Shown in pieces: positions 5,371 through 51,000 of a DNA stretch of 64,000 nt (the stretch's first letter is position 1; each line of letters begins with the position of its first letter). The stretch lies in assembly GCA_009746045.1 (NCBI GenBank), contig RPFO01000080.1, positions 10,602,242 through 10,666,241 of the forward strand, written 5' to 3'. The stretch is from Mesostigma viride. Lineage: Eukaryota; Streptophyta; Mesostigmatophyceae; Mesostigmatales; Mesostigmataceae. Below the pieces are notes generated by a model. It made no database searches and was not told the DNA's origin. It saw nothing but the letters and a program-made list of their open reading frames with translations. A program made the translations under genes and the position numbers.

Positions 5371-5439
5371 TTAACTAGCAGTAGCTTGCCTCAGCTTGTC
5401 CACACACTCCCGGCACAGGCTCGCGTGGCCACAACTGCT
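5371..5439 (-). pseudogene. Partial copy of the RING exon
   Basis: On the minus strand this reads S-S-C-G-H-A-S-L-C-R-E-C-V-D-K-L-R-Q-A then a stop (TAA at 5371-5373). It repeats 'C-H-A-C-L-C-R-E-C-V-D-K' of the exon at 5509-5613. The core TGTGCCGGGAGTGTGTGGAC is identical in both. An AG precedes it at 5435-5436. In the phase supplied by the preceding exon it would read out of frame, so it is either an alternative 3' exon or, more likely, one of the exon-edge copies common in this window. Confidence 0.55.
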
Positions 5440-48000: not shown

Positions 48001-51000
48001 TTCATGTGTGTGTTTGTGTCAAGCTTTGCCGTTTGCTAATTAAATTATAGAACTTGGGCCTCCTTTCAGCCTGCTGCAGGGTGAAACCTCCTTGTTTGTA
48101 GGGTCTGGCGTTTAGGGTGCAGCGTCTAGTGTTTTGGGTTTAAGCTTTCCCTGCATGAAAGGATCCCCCAACATGTTTCCTACATCTTATATTGTCCTCA
48201 CCTTGCATGGCCAGGTGGACACTGCCAGCCGCCTCTACCAGGAATGGCTGAGTGATGGCCACGCAAAGCAGCCGCCCATCAGCAGCAACAATTTTGATTG
48301 CGTGCTGGCCTTCAGGTGGGTACAATCGCCAGCTGGCATGCTACGGGTCAGCCACATGAGCCGCATCACTACCAGCCACTGCTATGATGCCATAATCAAT
48401 TAATGAAAGCACACGACTGCGTCATGTGAGTGTTCGATTATGTGCCATCACCCTCTACCTATCTCACAAAGGACGATGTCATCACCTCCCAGACAGTTTG
48501 AACTTTCCTCTTTAATAACGAGCCCTATCAACCTAACGGTGTACACCAGAGTTGATTGAGACGATTTTCACCCTGAAAATTCCACCCTGGCCGTGCGCAT
48601 GATGCATTAATGCTGTCTCTACACCCGCTTGCTTTCGACATATCGGAATCGTTGTCTGACCTGCCGCCACCCCCCATGGAAATCATGTCAAAAGTCCGGA
48701 TTCTCCAGATTTCTGGCCTATAGTGATGTCAAGCCTGCGCTGGTTGTCTCATGGATGCCAATATTTTCGGAGAACCCGGAAGCTGCTCACGTGCCCTTCA
48801 TCTTTCCTTCCAAACGCCTCCTTGACGTATCGCCCCATTGACATACTACCCGATTGACATCGCCCACACATCGCCCCTTTGACATATCAACGATTTCAAC
48901 ACTCCAAGATTGTTCTCTTTCCCTTCCCCACTCCTGCGCCCACCCCCATCAAGTAGCCACGTTTTTGGTGTATCGGAACCTTCTCATACGTCCCCCCCAC
49001 TCCTGTGCCCGCCCCATCTAGTTATCTTTGTTTATGGCGCATTGAAACCTCCATGTTTACTCCCCCTTCCCTCTCCCCCACCAACCCCAAGCAGCGACGG
49101 CTGGCTGTTCCCCCCCGCGTGGTCCGACAACCTCGACAACTTCATGGACCGGGCATGGGGATATCTCAAGCTGGGTGGGCTCTGCGCGATCGAGATACCC
49201 TGCCAGGGCAACGCCGAGTGGCTGGACACCGGTGCACGTGAGGCCGTCGCCGCCACCGGGGGTAAACTAGCGTCTGCCACCGTGGCTGCAGTGGGGGCTT
49301 CCAGCTCATCATCTTCATCGTCGTCCTCGTCATCTGCAGGGCGCAACGGGAGCCCGGTGCCATCGCCCTCATTGTCATCGCTTCCGGCCAGGCCTGGGGA
49401 TTTCACGGAAACGGGAGGGTACGCGGCGCTTCCGCGGCCCATCACGCTGGCGGACGTGGAGGCTGCCGCCCGGAGCCGAGGGTTTGCCATCGTGGAGGTA
49501 TGTTAATAGACTAATAGACACGGGCATACGAACATGGGTATAGGGGTGGTTTGCAACTGCCTCGCGGCCAAGAGCTGAGGGTTCGTTATCATGGACTCAT
49601 CGTGGGGGTATGTTCTGTGATATCTTTACATCACGAACCGGTAGGTTTTATTTGAGATCGTGGAGGTACGTTGTAGGGTTGTGTGTGGATTTTGGTGTGT
49701 ATTGTTGTGCGTTTGTCATCGTGGGATTATGCTATGGGATTGTGTGACCATCGTGGACTTAATTATTTGTGCATGGTTGGCTTTGTTATATGTACATCGT
49801 GGAGGTTATACATGGTCTAAATGTAATGCCATTGTGTTAATCCGCGGTATAAAAAGTATTAGTATCTGTGCCAGTGCTATGCTGGGTGATGTCTCTGGCA
49901 TACAGCCGGCCACATGCTACCGTTCATGCCCTCGGAACACATGCGTGCTCTGCCATATACGAGACGTTGTTTCGTATACGAGACGTTGCTTCATTGATAC
50001 ATTGCGCGGGCTAGCCACTCATTGCAACGTGTGCAGTGCCCCAACGCATGCGCAATGTGTGCCACTGTGTGCCCTATTCCGTGCCCTATACCCTGTACCC
50101 TACACGGATGTATCATGCGCTGGTCATCGGCCGCACTGTGTGTGCCGCGTGCCAGTCGTACGAGCTCACTTCCACGCTCTACGCCGGCAGCCGGCAGGAG
50201 AGCGCCCTAGCGGCTGATGCCGCTTTTGAGCTCGGCCGCGCACTGGTCAGCCACAAGCCCTACAAGGGGCAAGAAGCGATCCGAGCCGCCAAGATGTGGG
50301 CCAAGGAGGCGTGCCGGCACCTGGTACGTACTTCAGAGGAACAGCAGAACATTCCCACGAAACATACAGAAATCGACAGAAGGGGCTACTGTGGGAGGTA
50401 CAATGACTGCAGCTGGGAAGAACTTACAACAATGAGGCATGACGTTTTTTGGATCCAGCCTCTTTGGTCAGGGGTTGATGTGTGAAGCCAGAGCGTTCCC
50501 ATGAAAGCAAACAAAATAATTATTACGGGTATGTTGCGATGAGGGCCTGCAGCAAGGGAAGGAGTATCTGGTTGCAATCAGCGAAATTTCGTGAAACCTG
50601 CCGGCAATTGCTAAGAGCCAACTTGGCTGGTCCGCACCAAGTCAGTGTACTGGCTGGTGCTAGCCAGCTCACCCATGCACCAACATTTCACGGGCACTGA
50701 TTGCTCTGTGTGTGCCGTGCAAACGCACTTGCTGGAGCCTGTGTGTGAGCAAGCATTTCGTACAAGGCTCTTTCTTTCATTTGGCGAGGCATGTGTACAT
50801 TTAATTTTTTTTGCTGTTGTTCTGAGATGCATGGTAGGGGTCAAAGGTGCCTTATGAACTGGTAGCTCATGACGCAGTCACGAGATTAAATTTTGTTTCT
50901 ACTTTTCTGTGATGCCGTATCTGTGATACCGCGTGGCACAGGTGGAGCTCAGCCTCTGTGTTAAGTGTGACAACTCTTCCTTGAGTGAAGTGTAGGTACT

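Follow-up and report, generated by a model that had tools for sequence, protein, structure and literature searches.

Introns of Mesostigma viride contain copies of the edge of the neighboring exon. In a survey of 11 genes on four contigs, with 86 introns and 172 exon edges, 47 edges are accompanied by one or more copies in the adjacent intron, 72 copies in total, and donor edges (24/86) and acceptor edges (23/86) are affected about equally. A single copy is found at 33 of the 47 edges, and 60 of the 72 copies reach to within 3 bp of the junction. The identity of the copies to the exon ranges from complete to below 75%, with many at only 70 to 90%. This confirms as real the core observation of the initial annotation of the window, the 64,000-nucleotide stretch analyzed here, that introns hold decayed copies of the neighboring exon edge. 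Its count of more than 30 copies beside about 20 exons is borne out by 46 copies at 25 edges of 19 exons in the PNPase, HAD-methyltransferase, and CGL160-like genes, plus one site in the RING gene (exon-only query, local score of at least 15). The sidedness also holds: each copy occupies the intron next to the edge it repeats, on the side of that edge and in direct orientation, and copies occur on both sides of exons and in genes on both strands. These copies quite possibly reflect a recently active copying process directed at exon edges, which would rebuild the edges, leave fossil edges with their splice sites in the intron, and thereby lengthen introns. The process looks recent because some copies are identical to the exon.

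The contig set examined represents a 440-Mb genome in 2,243 contigs, and 51 of the 86 introns come from one contig. The published NIES-296 assembly is described as 442 Mb in 2,363 scaffolds built from PacBio, Illumina, and optical-map data, with a mean intron length of 1,142 bp (PMC6947507). Exon edges are predicted from DNA throughout. The exons of PNPase (+ strand) were obtained with the E. coli protein by spliced alignment and, as far as the KH exon, coincide with those of the Mesvir1 model; the protein built from the window exons is 100% identical to the Mesvir1 database protein over 84% of the query. The exons of the HAD-methyltransferase (+) and CGL160-like (-) genes were assigned by reading the sequence and, apart from the first exons, give a stop-free translation. 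The first CGL160-like junction is out of frame; its intron is counted and shows no near-edge match. For the HAD part, algal homologues are 45 to 49% identical across 57 to 58% of the query, and no Mesostigma protein is among the database matches. Five more genes in the 200 kb upstream of the window were modeled with a purpose-built HMM; judged by sequence, three of them are taken to be a poly(A)-binding-like protein, a DUF924/peroxiredoxin region, and a P450-like gene, and the other two are left unnamed. The genes carB, gltB, and gcvP on three other contigs were modeled by alignment to E. coli proteins. The weakest model is that of gcvP, with 6 stops in the joined exons, and the codon positions of its copies are unreliable.

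For coverage, flank, and later counts as well as the array-event count, introns shorter than 120 or longer than 4,000 bp and exons shorter than 30 bp were removed. For the z tests, introns longer than 4,000 bp were removed in the upstream set and those shorter than 120 or longer than 5,000 bp in carB, gltB, and gcvP, with none removed in the window. Interior segments were used only if at most 10 of their bases were masked; gltB exons after position 12442 (array-event count and all later counts) and gcvP exons shorter than 60 bp (coverage and later counts) were excluded. The array copies set aside in several analyses were listed by hand after viewing the data, with 11 in the identity profile and 13 in the codon, splice-context, and flank tests.

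Table. Exon-edge copies in the window (window coordinates)
Feature	Position	Strand	Identity
PNPase exon 3; copies of 3' edge at 12610-12628 and 12810-12831	exon 12370..12551	+	
PNPase, two upstream copies (97-bp array) of 5' edge, exon start 13237	13043..13184	+	45/45, 39/45
PNPase, copy with GT of 3' edge 13352-13392	13765..13805	+	0.82
Two copies of 3' edge ending 14639	14717..14803	+	0.81, 0.80
Three upstream copies of 5' edge, exon starting 17321	16901..17169	+	0.83, 0.79, 0.73
Copy of 5' edge, exon starting 18032; CAG kept, flank unrelated; filler 17893-18031	17864..17892	+	27/29
Two copies of 3' edge ending 18151; third at 19088-19112	18315..18449	+	
Copy of 5' edge, exon starting 22469; flank unrelated	22373..22411	+	37/39
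Three copies of 3' edge ending 22635	22719..23035	+	0.73, 0.87, 0.69
Copy with GTGGGT of 3' edge ending 24212	24285..24325	+	34/41
78-bp array of form D(XD)n, donor after 24908	24890..25223	+	
CGL160-like, copy of 5' edge of exon 36491-36589 plus CAG; flank unrelated	36658..36682	-	25/25
CGL160-like, two copies of 3' edge of exon 37063-37229	36795..36979	-	0.86, 0.85
HAD gene, far copy of 5' edge, exon starting 40651; 128-bp decayed array between	40241..40267	+	0.78
HAD gene, 73-bp array and older copies of 3' edge ending 40808	40783..41278	+	
HAD gene, 67-bp array, donor after 41854	41837..41994	+	
HAD gene, copy of 5' edge, exon starting 42553	42437..42479	+	38/43
HAD gene, two copies of 5' edge, exon starting 45612	45412..45534	+	0.81, 0.76
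HAD gene, two copies from 3' edge ending 45785; match ends 13-15 bp before junction	45885..46076	+	
HAD gene, copy from 5' edge, exon starting 46681; match begins 5 bp inside	46516..46555	+	
HAD gene, copy of 5' edge, exon starting 47446; flank unrelated; filler 47315-47445	47290..47314	+	24/25
HAD gene, decayed copy of 3' edge ending 49497	49564..49595	+	0.75
RING gene, copy of 3' exon edge 5509-5534; GT changed to CT	5395..5420	-	

Other repeats are present as well. Nonredundant tandem arrays (period of 20 to 400 bp, at least 80% matches) number 86 in the 264 kb of the window and its upstream region, 43 of them in the 64-kb window, and a 27-copy minisatellite of 22-bp units occupies positions 18488 to 19083 of a PNPase intron, between two exon-edge copies. 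By eye, HAD intron 5 contains a stretch of ~1 kb with inverted terminal regions (44363 to 45388), possibly a TIR element, and HAD intron 2 contains a palindromic, MITE-like stretch (41446 to 41606). The 200 kb upstream of the window looks rich in transposon-like frames, and a search of the window against Rfam gave 0 matches. Contigs C2011 and C557 carry long intronless GltB-, GyrB-, and ValRS-like frames, unlike the many-exon algal genes; judged by these frames, they are probably bacterial sequence in the assembly.

With a match defined as z > 4 against Markov-shuffled introns, 60 of 174 pooled near edges match the intron, compared to 4 of 176 exon centers and 5 of 176 far edges (Fisher p of ~1e-16 and ~1e-15, respectively). 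Exon centers thus do not match as often as edges, a check proposed in the initial annotation. The 30 introns of the window give 28/60 for near edges, 2/60 for centers, and 0/60 for far edges, and the near-edge signal is replicated outside the window in the upstream genes (10/38), carB (11/32), gltB (6/33), and gcvP (5/11). As a decisive test, however, the comparison with centers is rejected, as tandem duplications can bring only exon edges into introns. Exon centers are an insufficient control because introns are full of local duplications, and the intron interior is the control needed. By the same criterion, a second copy within the same intron exists for 241 of 934 interior segments (window, 148/439; upstream genes, 63/235; carB, 15/122; gltB, 14/96; gcvP, 1/42). 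The proposal of a process that duplicates junctions stands as far as border tracking, intron lengthening, and the many splice-like decoys are concerned, but the contrast of edges with centers cannot separate it from tandem duplication combined with selection.

Such position-independent tandem duplication, in units of 20 to 130 bp with exonic duplications purged and intronic or junction-spanning ones persisting, is the serious rival, although it is on balance unlikely. Edge copies would then look special since the near-constant exon partner keeps the pairs recognizable for longer. The 241 interior segments with local copies speak for this explanation, as do the counts of fresh arrays confined to exons (0 at an identity of at least 80% and 3 at 70%). 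Coverage by local copies is 0.166 in the intron interior, 0.19 at 15 bp inside the exon, and 0.09 at 20 bp into the intron; at 75 bp inside exons, none of 151 positions is covered. The resulting ratio of edge to interior is 1.16, and neutral simulations in eight settings span ratios of ~0.5 to 1.18; totals alone therefore do not exclude uniform duplication. The value of 1.18 comes from one setting (two-copy units of at least 40 bp), which yields only half of the observed coverage. The other seven settings give ~0.5 to 1.0, with at most 0.74 for array-like copy numbers, and the first simulation, with full array copy numbers, gives a junction coverage of ~0.07 to 0.11. Two further causes of the excess were considered and rejected. 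Growth from short ancestral introns conflicts with the youth of the visible copies at the fitted rates, an argument by reasoning from the coverage and simulation results. GC richness does not predict copies (exon-edge GC of 0.640 versus 0.643; p = 0.94).

The intron flank of the copies distinguishes two groups. The tandem arrays of 97, 78, 73, and 67 bp described initially are located at 13035-13282, 24890-25223, 40783-41104, and 41837-41994, and they repeat the exon edge together with its intron flank. Most other copies contain the exon edge and little past the AG or GT, as at 36658-36682, 47290-47314, 22373-22411, and 17864-17892. The identity profile of the nonarray copies is ~0.8 over the last 20 exon bases, falls to 0.28 to 0.54 at intron bases 4 to 7, and is near background by about the 14th base. 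The copies extend into the intron by at most 15 bp in 46 of 47 cases (median of 4 to 4.5 bp), with a median exon depth of 31 bp. A young junction-spanning tandem copy should have a young, recognizable flank, and simulated duplications of this type retain flank homology in 0.95 to 0.98, 0.82 to 0.87, and 0.67 of copies with exon identities of at least 0.88, of 0.80 to 0.88, and below. The observed nonarray copies fall far below this prediction, with 2/15, 6/21, and 2/11 in the same classes (13/28 in the first class when arrays are included). Some copies do share the intron flank, and ordinary junction-spanning duplication therefore also occurs.

The excess at edges lies in the copies without intron flank. 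Masking of arrays and low complexity leaves 41,557 of 68,809 bp of intron (27 of 69 kb removed), and here the search for direct repeats spaced apart (identity of 0.8, score of 18) finds 29 at edges versus 14 in the interior, or 11 after removal of copy-copy pairs. The interior predicts 0.8 at edges, or 1.65 once a factor of two is granted for slower decay, which places the edges ~18-fold above the prediction; tandem duplication gives no such edge excess of spaced noninverted repeats. Mostly intronic blocks at junctions number 2, and the masked search finds 0 inverted edge copies and 2 inverted interior pairs. The excess depends on the masking: with unmasked sequence (identity of 0.88), 15 repeats are found at edges versus an expectation of 3.2 (6.4 if the factor of two is applied), and the excess is smaller because interior counts are full of array members. 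The interior is an imperfect analogue, because its repeats lack a partner that decays slowly and because some of its duplicated sequence is lost to masking; the flank test depends on neither. Near-identical arrays (period of at least 40 bp, identity of at least 90%) span a junction in 6 of 18 cases versus 2.3 expected from uniform placement in 81 introns, compared to 7 of 31 versus 3.4 at 70% identity. This junction excess of arrays is mild and suggestive only. The position of the spaced copies is not independent of gene structure, as that of ordinary minisatellites would be; the arrays alone are only mildly enriched at junctions. Head-to-tail units including both flanks, typical of minisatellites, are found in the arrays and not in most other copies.

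Once formed, the copies fit neutral decay. Differences between exon and copy are distributed over the codon positions as 89:63:140 (0.144, 0.103, and 0.228 per site) in 59 nonarray copies and as 11:10:22 in the 20 copies with an identity of at least 0.88. This approximately twofold excess of third positions over first and second positions corresponds to the ratio of 1:1:2 expected when the copy is free to drift and the neighboring exon changes at third positions alone. A coding function of the copies is rejected on the basis of this pattern. The initial annotation placed the splice site in the copies as well, which applies to many but not to all: the exact GT is present in 12 of 22 donor and the exact AG in 19 of 25 acceptor nonarray copies, rising to 13/22 and 21/25 within 2 bp. 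The latter copies have median splice scores of 1.70 (donor) and 3.07 (acceptor), compared to 2.17 and 4.20 for real sites and -2.54 and -4.89 for random sites. Against position-matched controls, the splice context is significant for acceptors (p = 2.4e-06) and donors (p = 3.6e-05). This strong splice context at many copies fits copied junctions in decay.

The same splice context would also be expected if the copies were kept by selection as splicing decoys, or if gene conversion from exon to copy refreshed them while the flanks drifted. This explanation, which is improbable, would account for an exon part much better preserved than the flank and for a similarity not ordered by distance (7 farther copies are less similar than the nearer ones and 6 more similar, with no consistent age order). 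The codon-position differences are nevertheless those of a freely drifting copy, and the AG and GT are no better preserved than the adjacent exon bases. The pyrimidine content exceeds that of CAG-matched control sites only slightly (0.61 versus 0.54; p = 0.025), and a perfect-run test for patchy gene conversion gives p < 0.05 in 2 of 26 cases. Conversion should, by reasoning, preserve interior repeats too.

Short introner-like mobile elements inserting near exon edges with long target-site duplications are less probable still. An edge repeated on both sides of a filler resembles such an insertion, and the initial annotation named an element using splice sites among the possible causes; this finds little support, as the fillers of 40 edges share no clear family. 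The best filler-filler scores are 32.5, 24, and 22.5 versus a shuffled maximum of 21.5, with means of 10.3 versus 9.8. Filler lengths vary widely (filler ends were inspected by eye only), and few structures of this kind occur in intron interiors. An assembly or annotation artifact, conceivable for a long-read assembly with exon edges predicted from the DNA, is extremely improbable given copy identities from complete to below 75% on four contigs, a Mesvir1 protein model that reads into one array unit, and a published assembly described as PacBio at 113x with Illumina polishing (PMC6947507).

In the preferred explanation, the copying at exon edges tentatively takes the form of a local D-X-D duplication, possibly the result of repair resembling that of staggered breaks. 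D would be a block of ~20 to 85 bp (median of ~40 bp) with 20 to 60 bp or more of exon edge and mostly 0 to 15 bp of intron including the AG or GT, and X would be an unrelated filler of mostly 40 to 150 bp. A staggered break or paired nicks at the exon edge would be followed by fill-in and joining with filler. The exon-proximal D would preserve the exon and its splice site, and the filler and outer D would turn intronic, leading to a longer intron with a fossil junction. An identical lesion deeper in the exon would be purged, so that edges may be the visible survivors of an exon-biased process; an insertion near an exon edge would be harmless only if the duplicated block includes the splice site. 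Some D-X-D units may later amplify by slippage into D(XD)n arrays, and the copies would afterwards decay neutrally.

At 40 edges, the nearest copy gives median lengths of ~40 bp for D and ~74 bp for X. Five of these cases are arrays without filler; 27 of the other 35 fillers are 39 to 150 bp long, and the longest is 372 bp. Most nonarray copies form direct repeats around unrelated filler, as a staggered break would leave them. In intron interiors, where such breaks would leave the same footprint, spaced repeats are few, with 11 in 41,557 unmasked bp after removal of copy-copy pairs. In four of six near-identical junction arrays, pnp3, pnp13, had2, and had3, the terminal partial unit (58, 31, 29, and 27 bp) is somewhat longer than the exon part (46, 19, 26, and 18 bp), as would be the case for D(XD)n. 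Several points count against D-X-D. Exon-edge GC has no predictive value for copies, farther copies are not consistently the older ones, some copies share intron flank, and the edge excess of spaced repeats hinges on masking. The donor of carB 10 carries a 41-bp D-D without filler, fillers at acceptors must provide a pyrimidine tract, which random filler rarely does, and a preference of the lesion for exon edges over introns has no explanation in the model.

Intron lengthening is often attributed to transposons. With 47 of 172 edges duplicated, junction duplication would become a countable route of intron growth, in a species in which 30.1% of the intron space is called repetitive in PMC6947507. 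If copying is directed at exon edges, introns would be a readable record of their own growth. Extrapolated to the whole genome, the same rate would imply thousands of strong-looking decoy splice sites beside the real ones, and near-identical exon-edge decoys would make splicing fidelity testable. For gene prediction, a caution arises from the Mesvir1 PNPase model P0001, which ends in 14 residues that correspond to the exon read through its donor into the first 78-bp unit (24890-24950); judging from this reading, the database model is truncated at the decoy.

Within the open-licence literature, a full-text search on exon-edge copies in introns gave 0 papers, and no title on the subject in Mesostigma was among those listed. 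Several known systems show partial likeness. New introns of Daphnia are described as carrying 4- to 12-bp direct repeats of the adjacent exon ends, footprints of staggered double-strand breaks, and only 16.2% of established introns are reported to have internal repeats (PMC4202315). As in Mesostigma, terminal bases of the adjacent exon are repeated around inserted sequence, and repeated rounds may lengthen introns. The repeats described for Daphnia lie at the opposite end of new introns, whereas the Mesostigma blocks are mostly 25 to 70 bp long, stay near the same junction at a distance of mostly 70 to 400 bp, and occur at either side of introns that are not known to be recent gains. In the potato case, a duplication across the intron-exon boundary likewise leaves exonic sequence in the intron; there and in the AGGT model as presented in PMC3443670, a new intron is made and the duplicate includes the intron side, in contrast to Mesostigma, where introns grow and most nonarray copies are flankless. 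For Drosophila, 25 cases of novel intron positions are reported, some via duplication (PMC2891723). Tandem duplication and intron sliding there also turn duplicated exon sequence intronic, but the account given concerns new intron positions. Minisatellites resemble the junction arrays of 41 to 97 bp and differ from the remaining material, which is dominated by edges with one copy, the nonarray copies being separated from the edge by unrelated sequence.
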